This document shows, in pieces, positions 2 through 62,446 of a stretch of 64,000 nt of DNA (the stretch's first letter is position 1; each line of letters opens with the position of its first letter). Source of the DNA: an uncultured Rhodocyclaceae bacterium (GTDB lineage: Bacteria > Pseudomonadota > Gammaproteobacteria > Burkholderiales > Rhodocyclaceae). The translations under genes were made by a program, and so were the position numbers. Below the pieces are notes generated by a model. That model worked only from the letters and a program-made list of their open reading frames with translations, was not told the DNA's origin and did not search any database. Location: assembly GCA_907163225.1 (NCBI GenBank), contig OU015322.1, forward strand, positions 992,001 to 1,056,000, given 5' to 3'.

Positions 2-922
2 ATCTATTTCCGGCAACTGGCCGACATTTCGCCGATGGACATCCTGTCCAACCGCACCGCCTGGGCCTTCGTGTTCGTGACCGCACTGCTCACACTGCGC
101 CGACGCTGGGACAAGGTGACCTCCATGTTCCGCAACCCTCGTCATCTGGTTCGCCTGAGCATCGCGGCGCTGCTACTCGGCAGCAACTGGCTGGGTTTCC
201 TCTGGGCGCTCAACCAGCATCAAGTCGTCGCCGCCAGCCTCGGTTACTTCCTGACACCGCTGGTCAATGTGCTGCTTGCCCTGCTGGTACTAAAGGAAAA
301 GCTCAACCGCAAGGAATGGCTGGCCATCGCGCTGGCCGCGGCCGCAGTTTTCAACGAACTGTTCACCCTAGGCACGCTGCCCTGGATATCCCTCTTCCTA
401 GCCGGCACCTTCGGCCTCTATGGCCTGCTGCGCAAACAGGTGCCGGTCGATGCCATTTCCGGCCTGTGGCTGGAAACACTGGCCATGCTGCCCATCTGCC
501 TGATCTACACCGCTTGGCAAGTGGAAAACGGACACCATGTTTTTGGCCATTTTTCCGGGTTGACCGCAGGAAATGACCTTGGCGCCATGGTACCCGCCTT
601 GCTGATCGGCTCCGGCATCATGACCGCCGTGCCGCTGATGGCCTTCGCCGCCGCCACGCAACGCCTGGATCTGGCCACCGTCGGCATGCTGATGTACATC
701 AACCCGACCATGCAATTCCTGACCGCCATCTTCCTCTTCGACGAACCGCTGCAACCGGCCCGATTGGTCAGCTTTGCCCTGATCTGGCTAGGCCTGCTGA
801 TTTTCAGTTGGAGCATCTGGGAGAAGGTAAAAGGAAAGCAAAGCGTTGCTCCTTCCGCGCCCCTAGAATCAATGGCAGATCCCTCGGTCAACTCTGAAAG
901 CACCCCGGAAACAAAAACCTGA
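2..922 (+). CDS. rarD: RarD/EamA-type permease, 5' truncated by window edge
   Basis: Inner-membrane permease of the drug/metabolite transporter superfamily, RarD branch (the E. coli member is annotated chloramphenicol-sensitive protein; the true substrate is unknown). The frame is open to the window edge, and the residues before the first ATG at 35 (IYFRQLADISP) align with the RarD N-terminal region, so the real start lies outside the window. Typical RarD stretches are visible: GSNWLGFLWALNQHQ, ASLGYFLTPLVNVLL and a late YINPTMQFL. About eight to nine membrane segments remain, followed by a hydrophilic tail of about 35 residues. A dispersed repeat copy lies in frame at 550-570 and encodes FSGLTAG in a loop. 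The family assignment is firm; the function is inferred only. Confidence 0.85.
   Translation: MYFRQLADISPMDILSNRTAWAFVFVTALLTLRRRWDKVTSMFRNPRHLVRLSIAALLLGSNWLGFLWALNQHQVVAASLGYFLTPLVNVLLALLVLKEKLNRKEWLAIALAAAAVFNELFTLGTLPWISLFLAGTFGLYGLLRKQVPVDAISGLWLETLAMLPICLIYTAWQVENGHHVFGHFSGLTAGNDLGAMVPALLIGSGIMTAVPLMAFAAATQRLDLATVGMLMYINPTMQFLTAIFLFDEPLQPARLVSFALIWLGLLIFSWSIWEKVKGKQSVAPSAPLESMADPSVNSESTPETKT
550..570 (+). repeat. dispersed T-tract/GGTTGACCG motif, copy 1
   Basis: TTTTTCCGGGTTGACCGCAGG inside the rarD-like gene, read as FSGLTAG. One of about 13 copies in the window. Confidence 0.65.
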
Positions 923-965
923 AGGCCGTCCACCAGATTCGGCCGAGGCATACGAGTGCTTGACT

Positions 966-2159
966 TCAGCGCGCCTGCTCGAAGAGGCTGTCCACCTCCT
1001 TGGCCAGACTGGAGTTTGCCTCGCGTTCCTTTTGAATTTTCTGGCGATCCGCCTCTCGTTGAAGCGCTAGCGTTCGACGGTCCAACCGCGTACCAAACCC
1101 GGTTTCACCGCCAAAAATCCGGTCGAGCATTCGGTCGCCGAGTTCTTTCTTGAAGTGCCCGGCTTCCCAGTAGTAAGCAAGATGGGTTTTGTCGCCGCGC
1201 ACTGGAATCGGCTCAGAGGTTTCTGCGCTGAAGCCACTGAAATCGATGAGCTCGACCTTCATCCCTGCCTTGGCGTACTTATCGACGCTGGCAATGATTT
1301 CAGCCTTCCACTGCTCGAACACGCCCAGCAAACCAGCGCGATTCAACATCAGCAGAATTTCCGCATGATAGGGGTAGATGACAAGATGGACCGTGCTGCC
1401 CGCCGACTCAGCACCTTTCAGAAACGCTTCAAGTCCGGCAAAGTCTTCTGAAACCCCGCCCGTCTCGGGATGAATGCGTGGCGCCTTGCGCACCCAGCGC
1501 TTCAGGTTTTCCTCGGCACGCTGTCGAAAAAGGACGTAGTGTCCCGAATGCTCGACTTCGGGTACATAGTTACGTAACGGGTTGAAACCACGCTCCGTCA
1601 GTGTTGCGGGATATCGCGTTCGTTGAACGGCCAGCGTGGTCAGGGAATCATGGAGGCCAGTGATCGAAAAAGCGGTCTCGGCGAGCACGCTCAAGCCGAT
1701 TTTGGGTGCCGTACTGTCGAACGACTGCGCCTGTGCAGGCGATGCGCCGAGAAAATCGAAGAATTCAACGCCCAGAACGATTTCCTTCGGCGCACAGCCA
1801 GCCTGCTGGAGCCAGCCCAATTGTCGAACCGAATTGGTGATCGACGAACCGGGAATCGCATGATTGAAAGCCGTCAGCCCTAGCCGCTGGAAGACCGGGT
1901 GCTCAGGGTTCAGTCCGATCTCGGCGCGTGAATTGCCAAAAATGCCCACCTTGGGACACAAGCGACGCGCCGCCTGCCAGCGCGCGAGTTCCCGATGATG
2001 ATCAAGATAAGGCTTTGTTGCGTTGATGCCGGCAATGCGAGGTGAACCGAAAATTCCGAGCGGATCGACGAAAATATTGATGGCACCGCACAGACCGATG
2101 GTCCCAAGCAGTACTGCGAACATCCAGTACAAATAGCGATTTGGGGAATTTGCTGTCAT
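966..2159 (-). CDS. SGNH-hydrolase-like membrane-anchored partner of the MBOAT acyltransferase
   Basis: 397-residue protein with one N-terminal membrane anchor (about residues 10-30) and a large, probably periplasmic domain. GNSR at 75-78 resembles the block-I serine motif of SGNH hydrolases. A late D..H (323-326) and AGHF (332-335) could complete a catalytic site. The start codon overlaps the stop of the upstream MBOAT gene (TGATG at 2157-2161), so the two are translationally coupled. In alginate-type O-acetylation (AlgI with AlgJ/AlgX) an MBOAT channel hands acetyl groups to an SGNH protein, and the same division of labour is inferred here. The C-terminus is charged and helical (coiled-coil-like from about 355). 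The acceptor polymer is unknown; no polysaccharide biosynthesis genes lie beside it. Confidence 0.65.
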   Translation of the reverse strand: MTANSPNRYLYWMFAVLLGTIGLCGAINIFVDPLGIFGSPRIAGINATKPYLDHHRELARWQAARRLCPKVGIFGNSRAEIGLNPEHPVFQRLGLTAFNHAIPGSSITNSVRQLGWLQQAGCAPKEIVLGVEFFDFLGASPAQAQSFDSTAPKIGLSVLAETAFSITGLHDSLTTLAVQRTRYPATLTERGFNPLRNYVPEVEHSGHYVLFRQRAEENLKRWVRKAPRIHPETGGVSEDFAGLEAFLKGAESAGSTVHLVIYPYHAEILLMLNRAGLLGVFEQWKAEIIASVDKYAKAGMKVELIDFSGFSAETSEPIPVRGDKTHLAYYWEAGHFKKELGDRMLDRIFGGETGFGTRLDRRTLALQREADRQKIQKEREANSSLAKEVDSLFEQAR

Positions 2160-3703: not shown

Positions 3704-3873
3704 AGGGGACCAGAATATCTTGGAAAATCGCCGGGCATAATATTAACGGGACGGATGCACTCGCGGTGGATCAAAAACCCCCAGTTCGTGGCCAAATTGG
3801 CATTCGGCTAACATGAAGCGGCGGAAGCCCCAAGGAATGGGCTGCCCTCCCCGGCATGAGAGATAATCCCGCC

Positions 3874-5211
3874 ATGTCCCGTTTCCTGATCTACGCCATC
3901 GTCTTCATCGAAGGTTTCTGCTCGCTCGGTGCCGAAGTCATCGCCTTGCGCCGGTTGGTGCCGCACATTGGCAGTTCCATCGTTGTCACGGCGCCGACCA
4001 TCGGCTTCTTCCTGCTCGCGCTGGCGCTCGGTTATGCCTCGGGCGCCAGGGTTGCCGGCAATTACCTCGCCATCGTCGCCCGCAATTTTCTGATCGCCGC
4101 CGCCCTGGCCGGCATCGGGCTGGCCGGTGTCAGCGTGGACTGGATGTTCGCCCACCTGCAGCCGGTGCTCGTCGCCTACCTCGTCTTCATCGGCGGCGTG
4201 CTCTGCCCGCTGGCCTGGCTGCTCGGCCAGACCGTGCCGATCCTGACCAACCTGATGAAAGCCGAACGTACCGGCGAGGCGAGCGGCCTGGCGCTTTACT
4301 GGTCTACGCTTGGTTCCTTCCTCGGCTCGATCAGCCTGTCGCTACTCGTCATGCAATGGCTCGGCGTTTCCACCGCCGTTTTCGCCTGCGCGCTGGGCCT
4401 GCTCCTTGGCACGCTTTTGCTCGCCCAACGCGATTTCAAATTTTGGCTTTTTTTCGGGTTGACCGTGGGATCGGCCGCCGGTCTGAATTTGCAGCACAAC
4501 GTCACCGCCGATACGGCCTACGCCGAATACGTCGTCGGCGCTGCCGATCTGCCCGACCAGAAAGACCCGCGCGCCTTCTGGGTCAACAAGTCGGTCGCCT
4601 CGCTCATCGACGATTCCGAGCCGCCCAACTACACGCGCTACATCAGACACCTGCGGCAGATCCTGCTCGACGACCTCGGCTTCAAGGGCAAAGACATCCT
4701 CGTCCTCGGCGCCGGCGGCTTCACGCTGTCACACCGCGAACCGCTCAACCGCTACACCTACGTTGACATCGATCCGGCCATCCGTGACATCGCCGAAAAG
4801 CACTTCCTGCGCGAACCGGCCCGGGGCGAATTCATCGCCGACGACGCCCGTCGTTTCGTGGCGACCAGCGAACGCCGTTTCGACGCCGTTGTTGTCGACG
4901 TCTACAGTTCGCACACCTCGATCCCCAGCCACCTTGTCACCCGTGAATTCTGGGCCGGCACTCGCCGTGTGCTCAATCCGGATGGCGTGCTGCTCGCCAA
5001 CCTGATCCTCGACGGCAAGCTCGAAACGCCCTACGCCCGCAACCTGCTGGCCACCATCGACAGCGTTTTCGGCCGCTGCGCCGTCGACGTGCTGCACAAG
5101 GCAAAAACGCTGGCCAACGTCGAAGTCACTTGCTTTGCCAGCAGCCGACCGGGCGAAACGGGAATTTACATCGACGAGAAAAACCGGGCCGATCTCGACC
5201 GGGCGAGGTAA
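3874..5211 (+). CDS. membrane-anchored spermidine-synthase-like protein
   Basis: About 445 residues. The N-terminal half has six or so hydrophobic segments, starting with a stretch (EGFCSLGAEVIALRRLVP) typical of fused MFS/spermidine-synthase proteins. The C-terminal half is a class I SAM-fold domain with a glycine motif VLGAGGF, acidic YVDIDP and DVYSSH, as in polyamine aminopropyltransferases. Whether it makes polyamines is doubtful, since membrane-fused members are uncharacterised. An in-frame ATG at 3856 is an alternative start; 3874 gives a hydrophobic N-terminus typical of the family. Neither start has a strong ribosome binding site. A dispersed repeat copy lies inside at 4448-4469 (FFGLTVG), between the membrane and enzyme domains. 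Confidence 0.75.
   Translation: MSRFLIYAIVFIEGFCSLGAEVIALRRLVPHIGSSIVVTAPTIGFFLLALALGYASGARVAGNYLAIVARNFLIAAALAGIGLAGVSVDWMFAHLQPVLVAYLVFIGGVLCPLAWLLGQTVPILTNLMKAERTGEASGLALYWSTLGSFLGSISLSLLVMQWLGVSTAVFACALGLLLGTLLLAQRDFKFWLFFGLTVGSAAGLNLQHNVTADTAYAEYVVGAADLPDQKDPRAFWVNKSVASLIDDSEPPNYTRYIRHLRQILLDDLGFKGKDILVLGAGGFTLSHREPLNRYTYVDIDPAIRDIAEKHFLREPARGEFIADDARRFVATSERRFDAVVVDVYSSHTSIPSHLVTREFWAGTRRVLNPDGVLLANLILDGKLETPYARNLLATIDSVFGRCAVDVLHKAKTLANVEVTCFASSRPGETGIYIDEKNRADLDRAR
4448..4469 (+). repeat. dispersed T-tract/GGTTGACCG motif, copy 2
   Basis: Seven T then CGGGTTGACCGTGGG, at the last membrane segment of the spermidine-synthase-like gene (read as FFGLTVG). Confidence 0.7.
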
Positions 5212-5213
5212 AA

Positions 5214-6297: not shown

Positions 6298-6328
6298 AGC
6301 GCAAACCTTTCGAAAATTGGAGTCCCCG

Positions 6329-10631: not shown

Positions 10632-12044
10632 ATGTATTGCCTGCCACCGAAACATTTCAAAATTCGCCTGATTTTGGCGTTGACCGCAGCATTCGCCCTG
10701 AGCGGCTGCGCCGTTGGCCCCGACTACGTCCGCCCGGCATCAAGCCTGCCGGAAGCGGCGCCGACCGTTGCCAAGGCTGAAGTACCGGTCAATCCGACCT
10801 GGTGGACGCTGTTCGGCGACGCCAACCTCAACGCGCTGGTCGAGCAGACGTTGGCCGCCAACCAGGATCTGCAAGCCGCTATCGCCCGCCTCGAAGCGGC
10901 CGAAGCAGCGGCCCGCGAAGCCGGCGCCGACACCCTCCCACGCATCGGTCTGGAAGCCAGCACCGGGCGCAGCCAGACCAGCGGCGAAACCTTCAATGGT
11001 CGCAAACAAGGCGGCGCCACCTACAACAACAACCGCGCCGCGCTGACCCTGAGCTACGAGCTCGACCTCTGGGGCCGCATCCGGCGCAGCAACGAAGCCG
11101 CCCGCGCCGATGCACTGGCCAGCCGCTTCGGCCGTGACAGCCTGCGCCTGACGCTGGCCGGCCAGGTCGCCAACGAGTACCTCAACCTGCGCAGCCTGGA
11201 CGGCCAGATCGACGTCACGGCGCAAACGCTGGACTCACGCAAGCAGGCGCTCAAGATCGTCCAGGCTCGCGCCAATGCCGGCACCGCTTCCGGCCTCGAA
11301 CTGGCCCAGGCCGAAAGCGCCCTGAACGGCGCCCAGGCCCAGTGGCACCAGCTGCAACGCCAGCGCGCCCTGTCCGAAAGCCAGATCGGCCTGCTCAGCG
11401 GCCAGCCCGGCCTGAAGATCGGCGCCACTGGCCTCGACAAACTGCCGCTGCCGCCCACGCCGCCGGCCGGCCTGCCCTCGGCCCTGCTCGAAGCCCGCCC
11501 GGACATCCGCCAGGCCGAGGAAAAACTGGTTGCCGCGAATGCCCGCATCGGCGTCGCCAAGGCCGCTTACTACCCGACGATCAGCCTGACCGGCGTGCTC
11601 GGCAGCGAAAGCATGGCGCTTTCCAACCTGTTCTCCGGCGGCGCCGGCATCTGGTCGGCTGCCGCCGGCCTGGCCATGCCGATTTTCGACGCCGGCCGCA
11701 CCGGCGCCCGGGTCGATCAGGCCAGCGCCGTCCAGAAGGAAGCCCTGGCCAATTACCGCAAAACCGTGCAAACCGCCTTCAAGGAAGTCAACGACGCCAT
11801 CGTCGGCCTGCGCGAATACAGCGAGGAAGAAGCGGCATTCTCGGCCCAGGTCGGCGCCTCGCAAAAGGCGCTCGATCTCGCACAGAAGCGCTACGAGTCG
11901 GGCTACTCCGGCTACATGGACATGCTCGACGCCCAGCGCACGTTGAACAGCGCGCAGTTGCAATACCTGGCCAGCCGCAAAAATCGGCTGGGCGCTGCGG
12001 TCGATCTGTTCAAGGCGCTCGGCGGCGGCTGGGTCGCCGGCTAA
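10632..12044 (+). CDS. outer-membrane efflux channel lipoprotein (OprM/NodT family)
   Basis: 470-residue outer-membrane factor that forms the exit duct of the tripartite pump. The signal peptide ends at the lipobox LSGC, followed by CAVGPDYVRP, typical of NodT-family members. Two repeats of long helices and beta strands follow, as in TolC/OprM. GGAGG precedes the ATG, one base after the pump gene's stop. A copy of the dispersed repeat (10672-10689) lies in the signal-peptide region (LALTAA). Last gene of the operon, followed by a bidirectional terminator. Confidence 0.92.
   Translation: MYCLPPKHFKIRLILALTAAFALSGCAVGPDYVRPASSLPEAAPTVAKAEVPVNPTWWTLFGDANLNALVEQTLAANQDLQAAIARLEAAEAAAREAGADTLPRIGLEASTGRSQTSGETFNGRKQGGATYNNNRAALTLSYELDLWGRIRRSNEAARADALASRFGRDSLRLTLAGQVANEYLNLRSLDGQIDVTAQTLDSRKQALKIVQARANAGTASGLELAQAESALNGAQAQWHQLQRQRALSESQIGLLSGQPGLKIGATGLDKLPLPPTPPAGLPSALLEARPDIRQAEEKLVAANARIGVAKAAYYPTISLTGVLGSESMALSNLFSGGAGIWSAAAGLAMPIFDAGRTGARVDQASAVQKEALANYRKTVQTAFKEVNDAIVGLREYSEEEAAFSAQVGASQKALDLAQKRYESGYSGYMDMLDAQRTLNSAQLQYLASRKNRLGAAVDLFKALGGGWVAG
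10672..10689 (+). repeat. dispersed T-tract/GTTGACCG motif, copy 3 (weak)
   Basis: TTTTGGCGTTGACCGCAG in the signal-peptide codons of the outer-membrane channel. Upstream bases TTCAAAATTCG resemble those before other copies. Confidence 0.5.
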
Positions 12045-12083
12045 GGCGCCCAACCCCACGACCAAAGAGGCAACAACTGGGCC

Positions 12084-12102
12084 CCACGGTCAACCGGAAA
12101 AA
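12084..12102 (-). repeat. dispersed T-tract/GGTTGACCG motif, copy 4
   Basis: On the minus strand reads TTTTTCCGGTTGACCGTGG. It is intergenic, between the efflux operon stop and the terminator hairpin. Confidence 0.75.
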
Positions 12103-12114
12103 TCGGCTAAAAAC

Positions 12115-12150
12115 AAAATCGGGGCGCTCCGCAAGGTTCGCCCCGATTTT
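12115..12150. terminator. bidirectional terminator between efflux operon and rlmB
   Basis: Stem AAAATCGGGGCG/CGCCCCGATTTT with a 12-base loop. The A/T ends give a U-tract on both strands, so it can end both convergent transcripts. Confidence 0.85.
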
Positions 12151-17741: not shown

Positions 17742-17762
17742 AACGGGCCCAAAAGGCCCGTT
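17742..17762 (-). terminator. purA: terminator of the ndk-to-purA block
   Basis: Stem AACGGGCC/GGCCCGTT. On the minus strand it is followed by TTCATTTTT, so it ends transcription from purA. Its right arm runs into a partial copy of the dispersed motif. Confidence 0.75.
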
Positions 17763-17771
17763 GACCGCAGG
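17757..17771 (+). repeat. partial dispersed motif, copy 13 (no T-tract)
   Basis: CCCGTTGACCGCAGG, identical over 15 bases to the core of copy 9. The T-tract is missing and the hairpin of the purA terminator takes its place. Confidence 0.4.
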
Positions 17772-17785
17772 ACTCCGGCGTTAGC

Positions 17786-33980: not shown

Positions 33981-34000
33981 GCCGAAAATGGATTTTCGGC
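33981..34000 (+). terminator. terminator-like hairpin joined to repeat copy 5
   Basis: Perfect 9-bp stem GCCGAAAAT/ATTTTCGGC with a GG loop, followed on the plus strand by CTTTTTT. No plus-strand gene precedes it. The T-run is at the same time the T-tract of the dispersed motif. Confidence 0.6.
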
Positions 34001-34001
34001 C

Positions 34002-34021
34002 TTTTTTCCGGTTGACCGTAG
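34002..34021 (+). repeat. dispersed T-tract/GGTTGACCG motif, copy 5
   Basis: TTTTTTCCGGTTGACCGTAG, an intergenic copy and one of the best matches to the consensus, directly after a hairpin. Confidence 0.8.
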
Positions 34022-34062
34022 AAGCTGCCTTGGTTGCCACGATAGAGCCCCCTTCAAACGAG

Positions 34063-34084: not shown

Positions 34085-34110
34085 TTATTGCTTTCCTACG
34101 GGATGAATTC

Positions 34111-46012: not shown

Positions 46013-47263
46013 GTGACCTCCGATTTCACTTCAGTTTTTCTCGCTTTTTTCTTGTTGACCGTAGCAATCCGGCTTTGGCTGAAATGGCGTCACATCGGTT
46101 TCATCTTGGCGCATCGCGACGCTGTGCCGGCCGATTTTGCCCAAAGCATCGCCCTCCAGGCCCATCAAAAAGCCGCCGATTACACGGTCGACCGTTGCAA
46201 GATCGCTGTTCTCAACATCGGCATCGAAGCGGCGATATTGCTGGCCTTTACACTGGGCGGCGGCCTCTCGGCACTGCATGAATTCTGGTCGGTACGGCTC
46301 GAAGGCCTCGGCTACGGCCTGGCGATGATTTTCAGCGTGATGACAATCTCCGGCCTGATTGACCTGCCGCTGTCGCTGTACAAACAATTCGTCATCGAGG
46401 CCCGTCACGGTTTCAACCGGATGACGCTTGGCCTGTTCTTCTCCGACCTGATCAAGCAAACCCTGCTCGGCCTCGCCATCGGCGCCCCGGTCATCGCCGC
46501 CGTACTCTGGCTGATGGGCGCCATGGGCCAGAACTGGTGGCTTTACGTCTGGCTGTTCTGGAGCGCCTTCAACCTGCTGATCATGTTCGTGTACCCGACC
46601 TGGATCGCGCCGCTTTTCAACAAATTCTCGCCACTTGAAGATGGCGAAATGAAATCGCGCATCGAAGCCCTGCTCACCCGTTGTGGCTTCCGCTCCTCCG
46701 GCCTCTTCGTCATGGACGGCTCGAAGCGCTCCAGCCACGGCAACGCCTACTTCACCGGCTTCGGCAACAACAAGCGCATCGTGTTTTTCGACACCCTGCT
46801 CTCCCGCCTTGCCCCGCCCGAAATCGAGGCCGTGCTGGCGCATGAACTCGGCCACTTCCGCAAAAAGCATGTCGTCAAGCACATGGTTTTGATGTTTGCC
46901 GGCTCGCTCGCCTTTCTCTGGCTGCTCGGCCAGTTGATCGATGCCCCTTGGTTCTACGCCGGCCTTGGTGTCTCGGCGCAAAGCACCGTGCTGGCGCTGA
47001 CTCTCTTCTTCCTCGTCATGCCCGTCTTCACCTTTCCCTTCAGCCCGCTGATGAGCTACCTGTCGCGCCGGCACGAATTTGAAGCCGATGCCTATGCCGC
47101 CGAGCATGCCCAAGCTGCCGACCTCGTTCGCGCCCTGGTCAAGCTCTATCAGGACAATGCATCGACGCTGACCCCCGACCCGCTGCACTCACTGTTCCAC
47201 GACTCGCACCCACCGGCCGCCCAACGCATCGCCCACCTGCAACTGCTGGGCAAGCCGGCATGA
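46013..47263 (+). CDS. M48 family zinc metalloprotease (Ste24/CAAX-protease-like)
   Basis: 416-residue polytopic membrane protease. The zinc site [11 protein letters not shown] (about residue 276) and the third ligand in [12 protein letters not shown] (about 355) are intact; seven or so membrane helices match Ste24. The role in bacteria is probably membrane protein quality control. The first membrane segment ([15 protein letters not shown]) is encoded across a copy of the dispersed motif (46045-46064). Divergent from orn; upstream of rsgA, a conserved betaproteobacterial order. Confidence 0.9.
46045..46064 (+). repeat. dispersed T-tract/GTTGACCG motif, copy 6
   Basis: TTTTTTCTTGTTGACCGTAG in the first membrane helix of the M48 protease (read as FFLLTVA), with a further T-tract 10 bases upstream. 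Confidence 0.65.
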
Positions 47264-47316: not shown

Positions 47317-48183
47317 ATGGAAGGTCGCGTAATCGCCGCCCACGGCCGTCAATACGTCGTCGAACTCAGCGACGGTTCCCGCCTGCCCTGTTTTCCGCGC
47401 GGCAAGAAAAGTGACATCGCCTGCGGTGACCGCGTCGATATCAAGCAAACCTCGGACGATCAAGGCGTCATCGAAGCCATCCAGCCACGCAGCAGCCTGC
47501 TCTATCGCTCCAACGAAATCCGCCAGAAACTGATCGCCGCCAACGTCGATCAGCTGCTTATCGTCGTCGCCACCGAGCCGGCCTTTTCCGACGAACTGAT
47601 CGCCCGGGCCCTCGTCGCAGCGGAAAGCGAGGAAATCGAACCGCTGATCATCCTCAATAAATGCGACCTCGCCGACAAGCTGCCGGCCGCCCGTCAGCGC
47701 CTCGCTGTACTCGCCGGGCTCGGTTATCGCGTGCTTGAACTCTCCGCCCTTGAACACGCTGAAGACCTGCGTCCCCACCTCGCCAACCAGACCAGCGTGC
47801 TGGTCGGCCAGTCCGGCATGGGCAAATCAACGCTGGTTAATGCGCTGATACCGGAAGCCAAAGCCGCCACCCGCGAAATATCGCTGGCGCTCGACTCCGG
47901 CAAGCACACCACCACGCACGCCACGCTCTACCACCTCGATGCCGACAGTCATCTGATCGACTCGCCCGGCCTGCAGGAATTCGGCCTCGGCCACCTCGAC
48001 CGGCACGAAATCGAAAACGCCTTTCCGGAATTCCGTCCTTACCTGGGCCAATGCCGCTTCCGCGACTGCCACCACAACCGCGAGCCGGACTGCGCACTGA
48101 TTGCTGCGGTCAACGCGGAAAAAATCGATAAAACGAGATTTTCAACCTATCACCGCATTACCGGAACCCAGCGCGCCGGCTAA
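47317..48183 (+). CDS. rsgA: small-subunit ribosome biogenesis GTPase RsgA
   Basis: 288-residue circularly permuted GTPase releasing RbfA from maturing 30S subunits. An OB fold (1-70) is followed by G4 NKCD, then G1 GQSGMGKST and G3 DSPG, then the zinc finger CRFRDCHHNREPDC. Normal length. A minus-strand copy of the dispersed motif overlaps the C-terminal codons (AAVNAEKID). Starts 53 bases after the M48 gene. Confidence 0.96.
   Translation: MEGRVIAAHGRQYVVELSDGSRLPCFPRGKKSDIACGDRVDIKQTSDDQGVIEAIQPRSSLLYRSNEIRQKLIAANVDQLLIVVATEPAFSDELIARALVAAESEEIEPLIILNKCDLADKLPAARQRLAVLAGLGYRVLELSALEHAEDLRPHLANQTSVLVGQSGMGKSTLVNALIPEAKAATREISLALDSGKHTTTHATLYHLDADSHLIDSPGLQEFGLGHLDRHEIENAFPEFRPYLGQCRFRDCHHNREPDCALIAAVNAEKIDKTRFSTYHRITGTQRAG
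48104..48124 (-). repeat. dispersed T-tract/GTTGACCG motif, copy 7
   Basis: Minus strand: TTTTTTCCGCGTTGACCGCAG, at the 3' end of rsgA. Confidence 0.6.
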
Positions 48184-49380: not shown

Positions 49381-49383
49381 TTG

Positions 49384-52300
49384 ATGAACAGCCCCACCCA
49401 GCGAAAACAATCAAGGGAAATGCACCGGGCGATCGCCCAGGTCGTACTCCCCTACGTCGCCCTCGCTGGACTATGGATTTTGATTTCCGATCAGCTGGTT
49501 GAATATTTCATCGCAGATTCTGCCGCTCGGATAAGGGTCAGCATGATCAAGGGCTGGCTGTTCATTGCGGCCACCGCCGCACTACTTTCTGCCCTGCTCT
49601 ATCGGCTTTTGCATGAGAATCTGGCGCGCCGGGACGCGGCCGAAGCAGCACAGGCGGTACTCTCCCAAGAGCGCGCGCAATTGCGAACGCTCTTCAACAC
49701 CATTCCCGACCTGATCTGGCTAAAAAATACTGACGGCATTTACCTGAGCTGCAATCGGCGCTTCGAGCAACTTTTCGGGGCGACCGAGGCCGATATCCGC
49801 GGCAAATCCGATTTTGATTTCGTCGCTTCCCAACAGGCCGAATTTTTTCGCGCCAACGACCAAGCCGCGCTGGCAGCCGATGAACCGTGCAGCAACGAGG
49901 AATGGGTCACTTTTGCCAGTGATGGCCACCGCGAATTGCTGCACACCATCAAGGCGCCGATGCGTGACAGCACCGGCCAGTTGATCGGTGTCATCGGTAT
50001 CGGGCGAAATATTACGCAGGCCCACGAACTGCAGGAGCGCTTCGCAGTTGCCTTCCACGGCAGCCCGGCCGGCATTTCGCTGACCACCGTGGACGATGGC
50101 ACTTTTATCGACATCAACCCACGCTACCAACAGCTCCTCGGCTGGAACAGGGAGGATCTGATCGGCAACAGCTCGATTGATCGTGGCTTGTGGATCAGCA
50201 GCGAGGCTCGTGATGCCTGGCGCGACAAACTGAAGAAAGCCGGGCAGCTGCAGGACTATCAGACCGAGTGGAGAAGAAGCGACGGCACACCGATCCAGAT
50301 CAGTCTCTCGGCGGAAGTCATTCACCTTAGTGGCCAGCCTTATGTTTTGGCCTTTGTCGTCGACATTTCCGAGCGCCATCGGGTGTTGAAGCAGATTCAC
50401 CAGCTGCAGGAACGCCTCGCCATTGCTTTCCGGGCCGCCCCCGTTGCCGCCTGCATTACCCGCATGAGCGACGGCATGGTGGTTGAAACCAATGAGCGAA
50501 TGCTCAACGAGTTTGGCTGGACACGCGACGAATTAATTGGCAAGACAACGCTTGAGGCCGGCTTGTGGGGGAGTGCCGAAGATCGCGTCAAGATGATCGA
50601 ATTGCTTCAGCGCGACGGCCGAGTCAACAATTTCCCCAGCGTGGGCGTTGGTCATGATGGGCGGCTACGGGAAATCAGCCTTTCAGCCGATGTTGTACAA
50701 ATGGACGATGTGCCGCATCTGGTTGTTTTCGTTGTCGACATCTCCGAGCGCAAAGCAGCTGAAAGAGCGCTGGCTGAACGAGAAGAGGTTTATCGCAGCA
50801 TTGTCAGCAACGCTGCGGACGGTGTTTGCCTGGTGGACCCGGAAACGCTGGAATTTGTTGAAATCAACGATGCCGGGCTGCGTGATCTCGGCTACACCCG
50901 CGAAGAGTTCTCAGGTACAAGCCTGGCTGACATTCAGGCGACGCTGACCGAGCATGAAATCCAGGTCAAATTGAACAGTATCGTGGCCGAAGGCGGAGCG
51001 ATTTTCGAGAACCAGCACAGGCGGAAGGATGGCAGCATCCAGATCGCTCGCATCGCTGCGGTGGTCGTTGCTGTCGGCGGCAAACGATTGGTCAGCGGCA
51101 TTTGGCAGGACATCACGGAAGCCAAGCAGACCGCCGCAGAATTGCTGCAGTATCGCAATCACCTCGAAGAACTGGTCACCGCCCGCACGGCCGAACTGGG
51201 CGCCGCCAAGGATGCCGCGGAACAAGCCAGTCGGGCAAAAAGCGCCTTTCTGGCCAACATGAGTCATGAAATCCGCACGCCGATGAATGCCATCATCGGC
51301 CTCACCCACCTGGCCGAGCACCACACGCAGAATAGCGAGCAACTGGATCGCCTGCGCAAAGTAGCCGATGCCGCGCACCACTTGCTGTCGATCATCAACC
51401 AGATTCTCGATATCTCAAAAATCGAAGCCGGCAAACTGGAACTTATCCCGGTTGATTTTCAGCTCTCCCGCATTCTCGACAACACCAGCGAACTGGTACT
51501 CGATCACCTCCAGTCGCGCGGCCTCCAGTTTCATCAAGAAATCGATCCGGCGCTGCCCCCCATCCTGCATGGCGACCCCTTGCGGATTGGCCAGATTCTG
51601 CTCAACTATCTCTCCAACGCCGCAAAATTCACGGAGAGCGGCAGCATTTCCATCACGGTCAGCCTGGTTTTGGCCGAAGAAGAATCCCTGCTCGTCCGCT
51701 TTGCCGTGACCGACACCGGCATCGGCATTGCCCCCGAACATCAGGGCCGCCTGTTCAATGCCTTCGAGCAGGCGGACAACTCGACCACTCGGCGCTTCGG
51801 CGGCACCGGCCTGGGGTTGGCCATCGCCCAGCGTCTGGCCCGATTGATGGGCGGAGACACTGGGCTTATCAGCCAGCCAGGCCAAGGCAGCACATTCTGG
51901 TTTACCGCCCGCCTGCAAGCCGGCACATCGGTACCGGAAGAATCGACAACGCACATCTCGGCCGATCAAGCCGAAGAACTGCTGAACCAGACCCATATCC
52001 AAGCCCGCGTTCTGCTGGCTGAAGACAATCCGATCAACCAGGAAGTTGCCCTCGAACTGCTGCGCGGCATTGGTCTGCAAGTCGATCTTGCGGTCAACGG
52101 CAAAAAAGCCGTAAAAATGGCCGCAGAAAAGCCTTACAACCTGATCCTGATGGACGTCCAGATGCCGGTCATGGACGGTCTCACCGCCAGCCGCCTGATA
52201 CGCCAAAGCGAATCCGGGAGACTGATTCCGATTCTGGCGATGACGGCCAATGCCTTTGGCGAGGATCGCCAGCGCTGTCTCGATGCGGGCATGAACGACC

Positions 52301-52827
52301 ATATCGCCAAGCCGGTAGATCCGGGCAGCCTCTACGCCACCCTGATCAAATGGCTGACGCCGTCCCGGATCGAAGCCGGCACCAACTACATCGCTCCCCG
52401 CCCCGCCCCTCGCCAGCAGGCATCGTCGGAAACACTCGCCACAGAGACGATGACAGCCCTGCAGCGCGTTCCCGGACTGGATTACGAACGCGGTCTGCAA
52501 GCCCTGCGCGGCAAACTCCCCAGCTACTTGCGTCTGCTCGGCGTTTTCCTTGCCTCGCACGGCGAAGATGCCCTGAAAATAGACGCGGCACTGGCTGGCG
52601 GCAATATCAAGGCCGCCGAACAGATTGCGCACGCCCTGAAAGGCGTCTCCGGAACCCTCTGCCTGACAGGTATCTACGAAGCAGCCCGGGCGCTGAACGA
52701 TGCCTTGCGCCGTTCAGCCGCCGCACCGGAAATTTCCGGCCTGCAGAACGCACTCGCCAGCCAGATGCAGGAGACCAGCAAGCACCTGGCCCCGATCATC
52801 GCGACCATTCCGAGCTCCCCATGTTGA
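49384..52827 (+). CDS. multi-PAS hybrid sensor histidine kinase with receiver and Hpt
   Basis: 1147 residues. Two N-terminal membrane helices (about 15-35 and 48-70) with a very short periplasmic loop; four PAS domains (about 90-205, 210-335, 340-455, 460-580); HisKA with [13 protein letters not shown] (about 625); HATPase_c ([15 protein letters not shown]); a receiver ([24 protein letters not shown], about 920); and an Hpt domain with HALKGVSG (about 1082). All phosphorelay residues are present. Starts 4 bases after the HD-GYP gene and overlaps the next kinase by 7 bases. The signal is unknown. Confidence 0.9.
52087..52107 (-). repeat. possible dispersed motif, copy 8
   Basis: Minus strand: TTTTTTGCCGTTGACCGCAAG, inside the receiver domain of the first hybrid kinase. 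It encodes AVNGKKA, a common receiver sequence, so it may be coincidence. Confidence 0.4.
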
Positions 52828-55800
52828 ACGCCAGCCCGATGACCACACTCCGCGAGATCATGACCAGCGAAGTCCGCAGCCTGCCCCCGCACGCAACGCT
52901 CCGGGAAGCCGCCAGCCTGATGGCCAGTGAACACATTTCCAGCCTAGTGGTCATGAGCGACAGCAAAGCGCAAGGCATCCTCACCGAAAGCAACGTCCTC
53001 CGTGCCCTGCATATCGGCCAGCCAAGAGACATTCGGCTTGATGCCATCATGTCGCAACCGCTCATCACCGCTTCGGCGGAACTCGATCTGCTGAGCGCAC
53101 GAAAGCTGGTAGAAAAACATGGCATCCGGCACCTGGTGGTCACTTCCCCGTCGGGCGTGGTCGAGGGTATCGTCAGCGACACCGATTTCCGCATGCACCT
53201 CGGCACCGCCGCGTTCCGCCATCTGCAAACGATGGAAGGCATCATGGATCGCAAGATTCCCCAGTTGTCACCGCGTGCGACGCTGGGCGAAGCGATTGCC
53301 AGCATGCTCAAGCACGCGGCCGATTACCTGATCGTCTGCGACGAGGAAAGGCCGCTCGGCATCATCACGGAGCGCGACATACCGCGCCTGATCAATACCT
53401 TCCAGCAGCCGCAAGATGCGCTCCTGCAGGCAGCCATGAGCACCCCCCTGCGCAGCGTCAATGTCGACGCGCCGGTGACCGTGGCGCTGGAATTGATGAA
53501 TCGCTTTCGCCTGCGCCACATGGCGGTTCTCGGCGACGATGGTCGGGTCGTTGGTGTAGTCAGCCAGCGTCGCCTATTCGAGCAACTGGCGCTGGAACGA
53601 CTGGAAAACGCCCTGCTGCAAGCCCAGCAGGAGCGCGACCGCCTGCGCCTGGAAACCCAGCTGCAACTGGCCCTGGACATTGGCGGCGCCGGCAGTTGGG
53701 AACACTTCCATGACGACGACCGCCAGATAATCAGCCGGGGGCTGCTCACCCTGCTTGGCTGGAAGCCAGACGAAGCACCAAGCACGCGGGCCGAATGGAT
53801 AGCCCGGATTCATCCGGACGACCGGCATTTGCTAAATGCGCAGCCCATCGCAAGCTCGGCAGACCCTGCGGTCAACGGGAAAAACGGGCGAAATTCAGGA
53901 TTTCAGGTTATCGAGTACCGCATCCGTCACAGCGACGGACACTGGCTCTGGGTCGAGGACCGTTGTTGCGTCACCGAAAGCAAGCCTGACGGCAGCCCCA
54001 AAATCACCGAAGGCATCCTCAACGACATCAGCGAACGCCGCAACGCCCGCCATGAAATCACCCGTCAAAACCGTGCGCTACGGCTGATGAGCGGCATCGG
54101 TCAGGCGCTCGTCCGCCACACCAACGTCAATGAAATGCTGGCCGAGGTTTGCACCGTCGCCGTTGAAATCGGCGGCTATCAGATGGCCTGGGTTGGAGAG
54201 GCCTCACATGGCGCGGGAAAGCCGGTCGTCCCGATCGCCGCATCCGGATTTACCGGGGCTTTTCTGAGTAATCTCAACGTTTCCTGGGCTGATGTACCAA
54301 ACGGCCAAGGGCCAACTGGCCGCGCTATCCGCTCCGGCGTGCCGGCAGTCATTCGTAACATCGAGAACGATCCGTCTTTCGAACCCTGGCGCTTGGCGGC
54401 ACAAGCCCTCGGCTATCGCTCATCAATTGCGCTACCACTCAGGGCGGACGGGCAGATCCTCGGGGCGCTCAGCCTCTACTCCGCAAAGCTCGACCCCTTC
54501 GACGACGACGAACTCGCGCTGCTCGACAACCTGTCGGGTGAACTCGGCCTTGGCCTGAGCATGCAACGCTCCCGCCAAACGCTGGCCCAGAGCGAAGACA
54601 TGCTGCTCCAGGCACAACGCCTGGCCCGGCTCGGACACTTCACATTCGAGGCGGCGACCGACCAATTGTCCAGCTCGCCGACCCTTGGCGAGATTTTCGG
54701 CTATCCACCCGGCGAAGTCCTCAACACCGAGGGCTGGCGGCAATTGATTCACCCGGAAGACAGGGAACGGATGAGTGAATACGCGCGTGATCACGTCTTC
54801 CGCAAAGGCCAGGCCTTCGACAACGAATATCGCGTCATCCGCCGCAACGACGGCCAGGAACGCTGGATACACACGGTCGGCCAACTGGTTTTCGGCAACG
54901 ACGGCCGGGTCAGCCGCCTGTTCGGCACCAGCCAGGACATCACCGAGCGCAAGCTGTTCGAGCAGCGCCTGAGCCAGAGCGAAGCAGACCTCAAGGAAGC
55001 GCAGGCCGTCGCCCACTTCGGCAGCTGGACGCTGGATATCCTGAACGACGACCTGAAATGGAGCGACGAAGTCTTCAATATCTTCGGGCAAAACAAAGAT
55101 CAACCGTTGAGGCTGGCCAGTTTCGTCGAACGCATCCATCCCGATGACCGCGAACGCGTCCTGACCGACTGGACGGCCGCCCTCGCCGGCCAGCCCTACG
55201 ACAGCGAACATCGCATCTTCGCTGGGAAGCAGGTGCGCTGGGTGCGCGAGCGAGCCAACGTCCGCTTCGACCAGTCCGGCCGCCCCATTTTCGCCGTCGG
55301 TTCGGTGCAGGACATCACCGAACGGCGAGAATCCGAAGAGCAATTGCGCAAGCTGTCGCTGGCCATCGAACAGTCGCCGCACAGCATCGTCATTACCAAT
55401 ACCCGCGCTGAAATCGAGTATGTCAACGAGGCCTTTGTCCTCAACACCGGCTATGACCGCAATGAGGTCATCGGGGCCAACCCGCGCATGATGAGCTCCC
55501 ACAGGATTCCGGCCGAAACCTATATCGACATGTGGGCAACCCTTGATCGGGGAGAAACCTGGCGTGGGGAATTCATCAACCAGCGCAAGGATGGCACCAT
55601 CTTCAACGAGTTTGCGATCATTTCGCCGGTCCGCCAGGCAGATGGGCTGATCACGCACTATCTGGCCATCAAGGAAGACATTACCGAGAAAAAGCGCATT
55701 CAGTCCGAGCTGGACAACTATCGCCACCATCTGGAAGTGGTCGTTGCCAAGCGCACGGAGGAGTTGATTCTGGCCAAGGACGAGGCCGAGTCGGCCAGCC

Positions 55801-57560: not shown

Positions 57561-58846
57561 CCCAACCAGCGCGCCACACCGAGACCGGCCGCCCGGCCGC
57601 TGGCCAGGCAGGCGGTCAGCAGATAGCCACCGGTCGGTGCTTCCCAGTCGAGCATCTCACCGGCAGCAAAAACGCCGGGCTGCTGCCTGAGCATCAGGTT
57701 TTCGTCCAGCCCTTCGAAAGCAATGCCGCCAGCTGTGCTGATCGCTTCGTCCAGCGGCCGTGGCGCGATGACGGACAATGGCAGCGACTTGATTGCGGCA
57801 GCCAGGCTGGCTGCGGTGGCCAATGTTTCGGGCGGGCAAAATTCGCGCAGTAAACCCGCTTTTACGCCGTCGATGCCAGCGTGCCGCCGCAGATGGTTGG
57901 CCAGCGAATCGCGGCCGCGCGGCCGGGACAGGTCAGTCGTCAGTTTTTCCAAGCTGCGGCCGGGCGCCAGATCAAGGCTCAGCACGGCGCTGCCGTCACG
58001 GGCCAGTGCGTCGCGCAAGGGGGCGGACAGGGCGTAAATCAGGCCGCCTTCTACGCCCTTCGCGGAAATATTGAATTCACCCTTTTTTTCCGGTTGACCG
58101 CAGCCGGAAGGCGACGAGGCATCGGGCTCACGAAGTCCTGGGGCACTGCATCTGGCCGCCACTGCCTTGACCGGGGCGCCGGCAAATCGCTCGCTGAAAT
58201 ACGGGCTCCAGGCCACATCAAACCCGCAGTTGGCCGGCTTCAACGGCGAAACGGGTACGCCCCGCTCGCGCAGCAGCGGCACCCACGCCCCATCCGAGCC
58301 AAGCCGGGCCCAACTGCCGCCCCCCAGCGCCAGAATGACGGCGTCCGCCGCAACGTCGATTTCCCCGTTGGGAGTGGCAAAACGCAGGCCGCCCTGGGCC
58401 GTCCACCCCAGCCAACGGTGCCGCACGTGAAACTGCACGCCTTGGCCGCGCAGGCGATGCAGCCAGGCGCGCAGCAGCGGTGCAGCTTTCATTTCCTTGG
58501 GAAAAACCCGACCGGAGGTGCCGACGAAGGTATCAATCCCCAGCCCGTGTATCCATGCGCGCAGCTGATCCGGCCCGAAGGTCTCGACCAGCGGCCCGAG
58601 CTGCCCAGCCCGCTCGCCGTAGCGGCCGATGAAATCAGCCAACGGCTCCGAGTGGGTAATATTCATGCCGCCTTTGCCGGCCATCAAAAACTTGCGGCCG
58701 ACGGAAGGCATGGCTTCGAAAATTTCGATTTTTTTCCGGTTGACCGTGGGGGTGCAGCCAGTCGCGGTGGCCAAGGCTTCAGCCAGCACTTCCGCCGCCA
58801 TCAAACCGGCTGGCCCGCCACCGATAATGGCTACGCGCTGGGTCAT
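57557..58846 (-). CDS. BaiN/HI0933-type NAD(P)/FAD-dependent oxidoreductase
   Basis: 429-residue flavoprotein of the HI0933/YhiN family (TIGR03862-like). The dinucleotide-binding [29 protein letters not shown] and a C-terminal [15 protein letters not shown] flavin motif are present. Substrate unknown. Two in-frame stretches look inserted relative to the family: [12 protein letters not shown] near residue 35 and [12 protein letters not shown] near residue 255. Both are encoded by copies of the dispersed DNA motif. Its stop codon overlaps that of the convergent hybrid kinase; its start overlaps the transglutaminase gene by 4 bases. Confidence 0.85.
58083..58103 (+). repeat. dispersed T-tract/GGTTGACCG motif, copy 10
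   Basis: Seven T then CCGGTTGACCGCAG, inside the flavoprotein gene; read on the minus strand as GQPEKKGE. Confidence 0.8.
58729..58749 (+). repeat. dispersed T-tract/GGTTGACCG motif, copy 11
   Basis: Seven T then CCGGTTGACCGTGG, in the same flavoprotein gene; read on the minus strand as TVNRKKI. The frame differs from copy 10. Confidence 0.8.
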
Positions 58847-59865: not shown

Positions 59866-59867
59866 GG

Positions 59868-62387
59868 TCAAACTGCCATCGTCTGCCGGCTGACATCGCC
59901 GACATGGGTGAAGTAGCGCATGCCGAGCGACGCAGAAAGTTGATCTGCGGCGTCATTGAGGCCCTGCAACAAGTCGGCCAGTGCCTCGCAGTGCACGCAG
60001 TCGCGGGCACTGTCGAACTGGATGTTCTCCAGGCGGGCGAGATCGAAGCTGCGCAGACGTTCAAGCGCACCACCCAGATCCCCCTCGAAATCGGCCCCCA
60101 GCTCGCGCGCCATGCGTTCGAGGTAACGCCCAAGCACGCTGGCCTGGAAAACCACGCCGTGCGGATTGCTGTCATCGAACACCAGCAGGTCAACAACCGG
60201 CAGCAGTTCCGGCTGCCGCGAATAGCGCGAGCGGTAGGTAATGATTGAGTCGGACAATTCCAGCAACCATTCGAGCGAACCGGGGCCACGCGTGGACGGC
60301 ATGCGCAGGAAGTGGGCGACGCTCATGGCCAGAAAGGAGAGTCGCTCCAGGCGCCGGCCGATAATCAGGAAACGCCAGCCATCGTCGCGCGTCATGTTGT
60401 CCATCGCGAAACCGGTCAGCGACGATGAAACGCCGAGCACGCGGTCGAGGAAGGCAATCGCCTCGGTCAGCGTCGGGTGCACCTTGAGTGCCGCCTGCTG
60501 GTCGCGCTGCAGGCGGTTCAGGGAATGCCAGTGATCGAGCGAGAGGCGTTCGCGGACATGCGTTGCCGACCACATCAGCGAGCGAATATTGCCGGCCAGG
60601 CTACCCGGCTGCTCGGGATCGTAGATCGCCTCGAGCAACTCGTGTTCGCTGCCCTCCCTGATCTCCGTGTCCTCGCCCAACTCGGGCAGAACGCCCAGGT
60701 GACGGGCCAGTTCCATGGCAGCGACAACGACATTCGTCTTTTGCCCGCCACCGACGACGACGCGTGACAAGGCGACGCGCAGCATGCGCGCGCTGTCGTC
60801 GAAACGTTCGGAATAGCGGCCAAGCCAGAACAGGTTTTCGACCACACGCGAACTGAGATTGGCGCCGGCCCGCACCAGATCGCGCACGCCGACCGAGGGC
60901 TTGAGCATCGAGAACTGGCTGACCGGGCCATTGGTCAGCACCCAGGCATCCTTCGAGGCGCCACCGCGCTGCATCGAAATAATCCGGGTGCTGGCCCCGG
61001 TGGTCACTCGTGCCAGACCGCCCGGCATGACCGAGTAGCCGTCCGGCGTGGTAACGGCGTAGGCGCGCAGGCCGACCGGACGAGCCAGCAGGCGGCGCTC
61101 GTGCGCCCGGCTCCAGGTGGGGGCCTGGGAGAGGTTGATCATTTCCTGGGCGACGTAGGCATGCGGCCGGGCTTCGATGCGGCGCAGCAGGTCGGCACGG
61201 GCCTCACCCTTCAATTCGTTGCCAAAAACCGGATCCATCATTTGCGTCGGGTAGGCCGGCTTGATGACCAGATCGTCGAAGTTTTTCTTGACGAATTCGA
61301 GAGCCGGTTTTTCGCCGCACCACCAGGTCGCCACCGAGGGCATGGCCAGCTCTTCGCCCAGCAGATGCCGACAGATGGCCGGCAGGAAACCCATCAGGGC
61401 ACCGGAGGCGAGCAGGCCGCTACCCAGCGCGTTGGCGATGACAACCCGCCCGGCACGGGCCACGTTGACCAGACCGGGAATGCCCAGTGCCGATTCGCCG
61501 CGCAGTTCGAGCGGGTCGCAATAGGCGTCATCCTGGCGGCGCAAGATGACGTGCACGCGCTTGAGGCCACGCAGGGTTTTCAGGTAAACCGTGTCGCCGC
61601 GTACCGTCAGATCCTGGCCTTCGACCAGCGGAAAACCGAGGTAGCGGGCGAGGTAGGCGTGTTCGAAATAGGTTTCGTTGTACGGCCCCGGGGTGAGCAG
61701 GACCATGTGCGGCTGCTCGTCGCCCTCGACCGGGGCCAGCGCGCTCAGGCCGTCAAGTTGGTCACGGAAGAAGTCGGCGATGTGCTGAACGCGCAGGTCG
61801 CGGAACATTTCGGGAAAAACGCGCGAGACGACCAGCCGGTTTTCCAGCGCGTACCCGGCCCCGGAAGGCGCTTGCGTGCGGTCGGCGATGACCCACCAGC
61901 GGCCGTTCGGCGAACGGGCCAGATCGACGGCGTAGTTGTGCAGCCAGACGCCGCCCGGCGGCTTGACGCCCCGGCACGGCCACAGGTAGCCGTGCTGGCC
62001 GTAGACCAGCGCTGGCGGCAACAAGCCCTCGGCGAGCAAGGTCTGATCACCGTAGAGATCGGCCAGCATGGCGTTGAGCACGGTGGCGCGCTGGGCGACG
62101 GCAGCCGACACTTCAGCCCATTCGTCGGGCGGGATGATCAGCGGCAGCGGGTCAAGCGCCCACGGCCGGTCGGCACCGTTGGGGTCAGCGTAAACATTGT
62201 AGGTGACGCCGTTTTCCTGAATCCGCTGCTCGGCAAAATCGAGACGGCGGCGCATTTCCTCTGGCGCCAGCCCATCGAGATGATTGAGAAACGGCTCCCA
62301 GTGCGGGCGTACGTCCCCTTTGGCCGTCAGCATTTCATCGTAGCGGCGGGGACTGTTGGGGTAAATCGTCAGGAGCGTGCGAGCCAT
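59868..62387 (-). CDS. circularly permuted ATP-grasp / alpha-E domain fusion protein
   Basis: 839 residues joining two usually separate proteins. Residues about 1-500 are the circularly permuted ATP-grasp type 2 domain (DUF404/DUF407; AVDLARSPNGRWWVIADRTQ, LVEGQDLTVRGDTVYLKT, SLGIPGLVNVARAG-like). Residues about 510-830 are the all-helical alpha-E domain (DUF403; LSSRVVENLFWLGRYSERFD). ATP-grasp enzymes form amide bonds through acyl-phosphates, so peptide ligation is the predicted activity; the product is unknown. The start at 62387 follows a terminator separating it from the DUF2126 gene. Confidence 0.9.
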   Translation of the reverse strand: MARTLLTIYPNSPRRYDEMLTAKGDVRPHWEPFLNHLDGLAPEEMRRRLDFAEQRIQENGVTYNVYADPNGADRPWALDPLPLIIPPDEWAEVSAAVAQRATVLNAMLADLYGDQTLLAEGLLPPALVYGQHGYLWPCRGVKPPGGVWLHNYAVDLARSPNGRWWVIADRTQAPSGAGYALENRLVVSRVFPEMFRDLRVQHIADFFRDQLDGLSALAPVEGDEQPHMVLLTPGPYNETYFEHAYLARYLGFPLVEGQDLTVRGDTVYLKTLRGLKRVHVILRRQDDAYCDPLELRGESALGIPGLVNVARAGRVVIANALGSGLLASGALMGFLPAICRHLLGEELAMPSVATWWCGEKPALEFVKKNFDDLVIKPAYPTQMMDPVFGNELKGEARADLLRRIEARPHAYVAQEMINLSQAPTWSRAHERRLLARPVGLRAYAVTTPDGYSVMPGGLARVTTGASTRIISMQRGGASKDAWVLTNGPVSQFSMLKPSVGVRDLVRAGANLSSRVVENLFWLGRYSERFDDSARMLRVALSRVVVGGGQKTNVVVAAMELARHLGVLPELGEDTEIREGSEHELLEAIYDPEQPGSLAGNIRSLMWSATHVRERLSLDHWHSLNRLQRDQQAALKVHPTLTEAIAFLDRVLGVSSSLTGFAMDNMTRDDGWRFLIIGRRLERLSFLAMSVAHFLRMPSTRGPGSLEWLLELSDSIITYRSRYSRQPELLPVVDLLVFDDSNPHGVVFQASVLGRYLERMARELGADFEGDLGGALERLRSFDLARLENIQFDSARDCVHCEALADLLQGLNDAADQLSASLGMRYFTHVGDVSRQTMAV

Positions 62388-62406
62388 TTATAGTTTTTAC
62401 CAGCTA

Positions 62407-62430
62407 AAACAGGCCGTTTCCGGCCTGTTT
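62407..62430 (-). terminator. terminator after the DUF2126 gene
   Basis: 9-bp stem AAACAGGCC/GGCCTGTTT with loop GTTTCC and a short U-run on the minus strand. Repeat copy 12 abuts it. Confidence 0.7.
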
Positions 62431-62446
62431 CTGCGGTCAACCCGAA
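62431..62446 (-). repeat. dispersed GGTTGACCG motif, copy 12
   Basis: Minus strand: AATTCGGGTTGACCGCAG core, with AT-rich rather than pure T DNA upstream. Intergenic, directly beside a terminator hairpin. Confidence 0.6.

Follow-up and report, generated by a model that had tools for sequence, protein, structure and literature searches.

A directional repeat with paired A/T tracts in the genus Azonexus, a predicted DNA uptake sequence

The window analysed here is a 64-kb stretch (positions 992,001-1,056,000) of the genome of an uncultured Rhodocyclaceae bacterium, assembled as one contig of 3,463,890 bp. Scattered through its genes and gaps is a directional motif of ~35 bp, which is predicted to be a DNA uptake sequence for natural transformation. 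An earlier note, made from the letters of the window alone, had named thirteen positions for this motif, and the core GTTGACCG is present at all 13. Ten of the 13 match the extended form TTTTTCCGGTTGACCGYRG at three mismatches or fewer, compared with a mean of 0.09 and a maximum of 2 in 100 dinucleotide shuffles. The copies at 10672 and 62431 fall outside this cut-off, yet both A/T tracts are present in them; at 17757, described as T-less, the T tract is indeed missing and the core adjoins a hairpin-like repeat. The core occurs 21 times in the window against 2.38 expected. At least two of the surplus copies, at 24650 and 25175, have no T tract, and both are inside one open reading frame (ORF; 24203-25531). 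The sites are listed below; mismatches are counted against TTTTTCCGGTTGACCGYRG, and the bounds of genes and ORFs are crude gene calls.

534..571, plus strand: motif copy in gene 35-922; core at 559, 2 mismatches
4433..4470, plus strand: motif copy in gene 3856-5211; core at 4458, 1 mismatch
10654..10691, plus strand: motif copy near the start of ORF 10632-12044, with divergent core-adjacent bases; core at 10679, both A/T tracts, more than 3 mismatches
12082..12119, minus strand: motif copy with its core outside crudely called genes; core at 12087, 0 mismatches
17757..17775, plus strand: doubtful and excluded from the site count, a T-less core beside the hairpin-like repeat AACGGGCC-CAAAA-GGCCCGTT; core at 17760
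33986..34023, plus strand: motif copy close to the start of ORF 33979-35400; core at 34011, 0 mismatches
46029..46066, plus strand: motif copy in the M48 peptidase ORF 46013-47263; core at 46054, 2 mismatches
48102..48139, minus strand: motif copy near the 3' end of an RsgA-like gene (47317-48183); core at 48107, 3 mismatches
52086..52123, minus strand: motif copy in the histidine-kinase ORF 49381-52827; core at 52091, 3 mismatches
53864..53901, minus strand: motif copy in the histidine-kinase ORF 52350-57560; core at 53869, 1 mismatch
58068..58105, plus strand: motif copy in the HI0933-like gene 57557-58846; core at 58093, 0 mismatches
58714..58751, plus strand: second motif copy in the HI0933-like gene 57557-58846; core at 58739, 0 mismatches
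62429..62466, minus strand: motif copy with its core between genes 59868-62387 and 62454-63992; core at 62434, both A/T tracts, more than 3 mismatches

The anatomy of the site was derived from 144 sampled copies of GTTGACCG and, in 20 stretches, from 107 copies with YR behind the core. Read in its own direction, the site consists of an A/T tract, a G/C spacer, a T tract and the core, the two tracts being 11 bp apart. The one-turn spacing of the tracts, already proposed from the window, is clear in the 107 copies: with a background of 0.40, the A/T fraction is 0.37 (close to that level) at -30..-26, 0.84 at -20..-15, 0.23 at -14..-10 and 0.81 at -9..-4. The downstream consensus is about YRG(C/G)A, and the flanks are little conserved past ~25 bp on the upstream side and ~13 bp on the downstream side. 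GTTGACCG ranks first by z among all 8-mers with 20 or more occurrences in the sample (145 on both strands, versus 30 under a second-order model).

Over the whole genome, TTTTTCCGGTTGACCGYRG is matched at three mismatches or fewer 675 times (351 on the plus and 324 on the minus strand), whereas the reversed pattern is matched 5 times (4 and 1). The genome-wide count is thus far over its control and copies are not limited to the window; over-representation of this kind is expected of DNA uptake sequences. Positional analyses covered 464 kb of the 3.46 Mb, made up of the window and 20 further stretches of 20 kb. All 20 of the 20-kb stretches hold copies, 1-7 each with a mean of 4.2, at a density of ~1 per 5 kb; their variance of 2.4 is below the mean, a trend toward even spacing only (P 0.07). 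Strand totals over 42 genomes are 10085 and 10138, and orientation relative to replication, judged by local GC skew, shows no clear leading-strand preference (52:42). Dispersal on both strands without replication bias is likewise a trait of uptake sequences. Of the 94 sites in the 464 kb, 51 lie wholly within crudely called genes (32 antisense and 19 sense, in preferred frames) and 43 do not, while called genes cover ~86% of the sequence. The 51 intragenic copies compare with 5-10 in ten synonymous-codon shuffles, which bears out the view that conservation is at the DNA level; since the shuffles still hold 5-10 copies, the encoded residues alone favour some matches.

Among 60 relatives, the only enriched genus was the GTDB genus Azonexus, which includes Dechloromonas. 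Both names had been put forward for comparison from the window, and rightly so: 194 genomes from 67 other genera of the family (199 family genomes examined) gave 0-12 matches to the window's form, which is background only, and 24 genomes from other families gave 0-8. With the dialect-blind pattern A/T5-N17-GACCGYR, scored as a ratio to its reversed control in 76 genomes of the genus, 41 are motif bearers (ratio about 4.5-34), 32 are non-bearers (0.4-2.2) and three are intermediate (2.5-3.0).

To place this distribution, a quick tree was built with IspH, LspA and RibF of 39 genus genomes and 4 outgroups; many of its forks are unsupported, and L094 (too little data) and genomes with no named LspA locus are omitted from it. 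IleRS was kept out because two types of it exist. At the ileS loci (L091-L139, L166) these types are about 70% or >80% identical to the IleRS of the window's genome, suggesting gene replacement. One supported clade consists of eight genomes rich in the window's form; two genomes elsewhere on the tree also have many matches to it at two mismatches or fewer (G034, 256; G269, 204). Presence and absence of the motif require at least six changes on the tree, three of them forced by well-supported branches, compared with 10.5 when states are shuffled. The members of one supported sister pair differ, with 456 hits (control 17) in A. fungiphilus (G031) and 52 (control 28) in D. aromatica HJP_bin19 (G258), which indicates that the motif state can change fast. 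In two genomes that are otherwise motif-poor, copies that match the window's form perfectly or nearly so are clustered in one part (G259 C1:1477440-1553888; G260 C1:3758684-3825189), as though they had come in from a motif-rich species.

Samples of 80-100 kb from each of 19 further genus genomes (20 in all) were listed for enriched 10-mers, with no preset word. At least four core dialects were found around GACCG, with unchanged tract geometry:

GTTGACCGYR, in G000, G279 and G264, from enriched 10-mers
GTYGACCGCA, in G030, G008, G010, G121 and G281, and also in G020, there followed by ACAG, from enriched 10-mers
GTCGACCGTG, with A/T on both sides, in G206, where it ranks below unrelated repeats
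GACCGTAGCATT, the bases ahead of GACCG being free, in G029 and G277, from enriched 10-mers

A further form, GACCGCAGCA in G014, surfaces only when words that begin with GACCG are listed. No comparable word appears in the samples of G257 (Dechloromonas agitata is5), G261, G035, G171, G283 and G018, and the sample of G005 is marginal. Isolates of motif-rich species include Azonexus hydrophilus ZS02, which has the GTYGACCGCA dialect, and Dechloromonas sp. Dech2017. All 13 bearing samples have the same profile of A/T fraction: high at -20..-15 (0.71-0.87), low at -14..-10 (0.18-0.38) and raised once more at -9..-4 (0.46-0.94). That the core varies while the frame stays constant suggests one evolving receptor behind all the dialects. 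Other words are strongly over-represented in two of these genomes, namely GTAGCGGGTA and TCCGGGGCTT in G206 (L076-L080) and AAGGCTGAGAA in G029 (L228-L231); they are probably tandem or other repeats.

The turnover of individual copies was followed in a 5-kb orthologous segment aligned for 30 genomes. At the two sites in the HI0933-like gene, every one of the 11 genomes that are rich in the window's form, the window's own included, has the core or a one-change copy in place. At 58068..58105 the core is found in none of the 19 remaining aligned genomes. At 58714..58751, GACCGTAGC forms with T tracts are found in G029 and G277, both sampled as bearers of that dialect, and TACCGTAGC in G289, while G014, G259 and G260 hold core words with no T tract. 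The remaining genomes have other coding sequence at both sites, with some short gaps in variable protein stretches. Gaps were also compared in two pairs of relatives with one bearer each (83% and 80% identity over the aligned parts). Ten of 16 core places are gap-free, and at one of these ten the core is retained in both relatives; of the gapped places, four fall at a pair of heavily gapped palindromic sites in intergenic DNA and two have four gap positions each. The mostly gap-free alignment implies that copies arise and decay largely by substitution, a mode of origin that is characteristic of uptake sequences. The palindromic sites (L112 near 18670, L120 near 18710) have A/T tracts on both sides of the core, which would make them usable from either direction, and are situated between converging ORFs, behind a hairpin and then a T run.

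Recently acquired DNA was considered as well. A 33.7-kb island of 51.5% G+C in the motif-rich genome G002 contains 0 copies where 5.4 are expected at the genome mean rate (P 0.005). An exact scan of viral contigs gave two matching stretches; chance could give as many in a collection of that size, and it is uncertain how well Azonexus viruses are represented there, so that the two were counted neither way. A 5-kb query had no near match among plasmids, a result that is uninformative about the motif. In two species comEC is split by an island of ~33 kb with 51.5-52.5% G+C (G002 C33:109608-143311, L288-L290; G283 C1:2218693-2251157, L291-L293). In G002 a large serine recombinase is the first sizeable ORF past the break, and the island encodes a Type ISP restriction enzyme, a CHAT-domain protein, a PolB-like protein and an UmuC-like polymerase.

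That the motif exists, that it occurs in dialects and that it is confined to one genus is established computationally. The earlier note had offered two readings, an uptake sequence or the binding site of a nucleoid or segregation protein. The former is favoured because the motif is strand-neutral, shows no clear replichore bias and has copies in all 20 sampled stretches, because the dialects alter the core and not the geometry, because related species differ in presence and absence, and because the one island examined is empty; a segregation site is made less likely by the lack of any strand or regional pattern. Uptake is therefore the predicted function, and in our judgement the probable one. 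Naturally competent cells would preferentially bind and import motif-bearing DNA, which would account for the hundreds of copies. A pilus-associated receptor may read the core, that is, GACCG and the dialect-specific flanking bases, and the two A/T tracts, one helical turn apart, may allow the DNA to bend for entry. DNA with good sites would be imported and recombined more often, so that point mutation together with biased import (molecular drive) could let sites accumulate on both strands, within genes and between them, and not in fresh foreign DNA. A shift in receptor preference would let a new dialect build up, and loss of preference or competence would leave the sites to decay. We infer the uptake bias, the receptor and the direction of evolution from these patterns.

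Only two families, Pasteurellaceae and Neisseriaceae, are described as having such uptake sequences (PMC12616744), and no uptake sequence of Rhodocyclales was found in the open-licence PubMed Central literature, mostly titles and abstract openings. Of 510 papers there that contain one of the core strings, the ten listed are unrelated by title. The uptake signal sequence (USS) of Pasteurellaceae is likewise a directional core with two A/T segments on one side, and it shares with the present motif its many copies, origin by substitution, subclade-specific cores and intragenic presence (PMC1626085, PMC7811141, PMC2346458). Two one-sided A/T segments about one turn apart are thus found here as in the USS, the proximal one being weak in one dialect group; their spacing is 12 positions in the Haemophilus-type USS and 11 in Azonexus. 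The cores are different: AAGTGCGGT (Haemophilus type) and ACAAGCGGT (Actinobacillus type) are not those of Azonexus, which are GTYGACCGYR and GACCGTAGCA. Between the USS inner core GCGG and the Azonexus centre GACCG (reverse complement CGGTC), only CGG is common to all dialects. Seven bases separate CGGT from the first tract in Azonexus, whereas the USS consensus has two there, and the Azonexus hosts are betaproteobacterial. The layout is thus USS-like with a different core, and its origin is apparently independent.

The DNA uptake sequence (DUS) of Neisseriaceae resembles the Azonexus motif in having dialects within one lineage (eight are reported), a short invariant core, some relatives without any, and copies in genes and gaps (PMC3630211). 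Unlike the Azonexus motif, it is continuous, up to about 13 bases long, and has no flanking A/T tracts; there is no evident likeness in sequence. A DUS-type word (GCCGTCTGAA, CTG core) is not among the top enriched 10-mers listed for the samples of the 20 genus genomes. Intragenic orientation bias has been described for uptake sequences (PMC2346458).

Part of the machinery that uptake would need is present in the genus. ComEC is detected in 71 of the 76 genus genomes and in 51 of 51 high-quality ones, in a few of them in pieces. The state of comEC was tried as a predictor of motif loss and set aside, split or damaged matches occurring among bearers and non-bearers alike. In the non-bearing G035 the comEC match consists of two overlapping pieces in different frames (C1:1959178-1959913), and in the motif-bearing G008 it contains a stop codon (C10:856383-856889). 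FimT, ComP and PpdA(ComN) are DNA-binding minor pilins (PMC12616744), and prepilin-type proteins are present in the window's genome, with 16 matches. A minor-pilin operon lies beside ispH-lspA-ileS, and one member matches PF16732 ComP_DUS at 1.5e-13.

The receptor family of the DUS is therefore found in Azonexus, without tracking the motif: the ComP_DUS pilin occurs in 70 of the 76 genomes regardless of the motif, and its score is unrelated to motif strength (Spearman -0.16, n=70). PilE and FimT were also rejected. At three window-dialect loci with full-length matches (L091-L093), PilE is 39-41% and FimT 28-31% identical to the proteins of the window's genome while IleRS is 94-96% identical, and such low identity within one dialect makes them poor candidates for a shared specificity. 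PilE, FimT and PilW (L067:19435-19875, L063, L061 and their orthologues in L091-L093) have ~26-41% identity at these loci, where IleRS has 94-96%.

A different pilin, encoded in the window's genome outside the window (C1:2899666-2900343, minus strand), is distantly GspG-like; its top NCBIfam match is GspG at 35.7 bits, below the cut-off of 88.85. Similarity to this copy tracks the motif across the genus (Spearman 0.61, n=76), whereas a kinship proxy does not track the pilin (0.05, n=60). Over 14 genomes, identity is 51-79% in nine bearing genomes and 35-42% in five non-bearing ones, and the low-identity group includes G035 and G171 although the 5-kb region marks them as close kin. Of the 41 bearers, 36 score at least 200 bits, as do 9 of the 32 non-bearers. 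A second pilin encoded in that region of the genome shows no pattern with the motif (41-51% in bearing, 44-50% in non-bearing genomes). Two findings count against a receptor role, namely the nine non-bearing genomes that score as high as bearers, and the complete, bearing genome G030, in which no clear orthologue was found. The other four bearers below 200 bits have split matches (G012, G279), a contig edge (G286) or no hit (G021, 74% complete). Independent pairs on the tree are too few for a test, and the GspG-like pilin is a lead, not a result, as a possible receptor.

Several observations weigh against an uptake function. Genomes of the GTYGACCGCA group have a weak proximal tract (0.46-0.65). 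Density is about five times sparser than in Haemophilus or Neisseria (~1 per 5 kb against ~1 per kb). DUS and USS often pair at terminators, whereas the window's form has no pair excess: opposite-strand pairs within 100 bp number 1 against 2.2 expected in three genomes. In G206 and G281 such pairs are in excess (6 against 0.76 and 5 against 0.92 expected), because the core itself is palindromic there. The result for foreign DNA in a motif-rich genome comes from one island. comEC is interrupted in the motif-rich G002 and apparently whole in several motif-free genomes, and the ComP_DUS pilin, as described, does not follow the motif. To our knowledge, there has been no uptake or transformation experiment in any Azonexus or Dechloromonas, the two papers that a search listed being unrelated by title and abstract. 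Finally, a nucleoid protein of evolving specificity would likewise yield dialects.

This last point belongs to the best surviving alternative, in which the motif is bound by a protein that is nucleoid-associated or organises the chromosome and that has drifted in specificity from species to species. A bending protein would fit A/T tracts one turn apart, and copies in every 20-kb stretch with a variance below the mean (2.38 against 4.2, not significant) would suit an organising role. Near-complete presence or absence among relatives, including the sister pair L120/L117, would be odd for an architectural site, an empty integrated island would be unexpected if the site merely organised the chromosome, and there is no strand pattern; this alternative is judged unlikely.

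A recombination or segregation signal read directionally, like Chi, KOPS (FtsK orienting polar sequences) or matS, could account for an asymmetric motif in hundreds of copies, but it is very improbable given the even strand use (351:324 in this genome, with equally balanced totals over the 42 genomes and by GC skew) and the restriction of the motif to no sampled region. Chi and KOPS are also far shorter than the Azonexus motif. Just as improbable is a regulatory or terminator element of a regulon. The excess of sites not wholly in genes, the cores that adjoin hairpin-like repeats (17760 in the window; L112 near 18640) and the pair excess of palindromic cores in the dialects of G206 and G281 would agree with such an element; the hundreds of copies on either strand, many deep within unrelated genes, and the missing pair excess of the window's form would not. 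Least probable of all is a short mobile or amplifying repeat (miniature inverted-repeat transposable element or repetitive extragenic palindrome-like), which would explain many near-identical copies but hardly the many intragenic ones, the gap-free core places between relatives, the confinement of strong gaps to two palindromic sites between ORFs, the slight flank conservation or dialects that shift base by base on a fixed frame.

Beyond the uptake function itself, a broader proposal can be made tentatively, and taken as a whole it is a doubtful one: that Azonexus has a third, independently evolved bacterial system of self-DNA recognition, with a convergent USS-like bent-DNA layout, at least four dialects and repeated gains and losses in one genus, read by the GspG-like pilin and not by ComP or FimT. 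If true, a third lineage would mean that uptake specificity evolves repeatedly. Related species with differing dialects or none would offer direct tests of why uptake sequences exist and of how receptor and sequence change together. The same genus could also show whether species are isolated by their dialects and what role the A/T tracts have, in hosts that are environmental bacteria and experimentally convenient.

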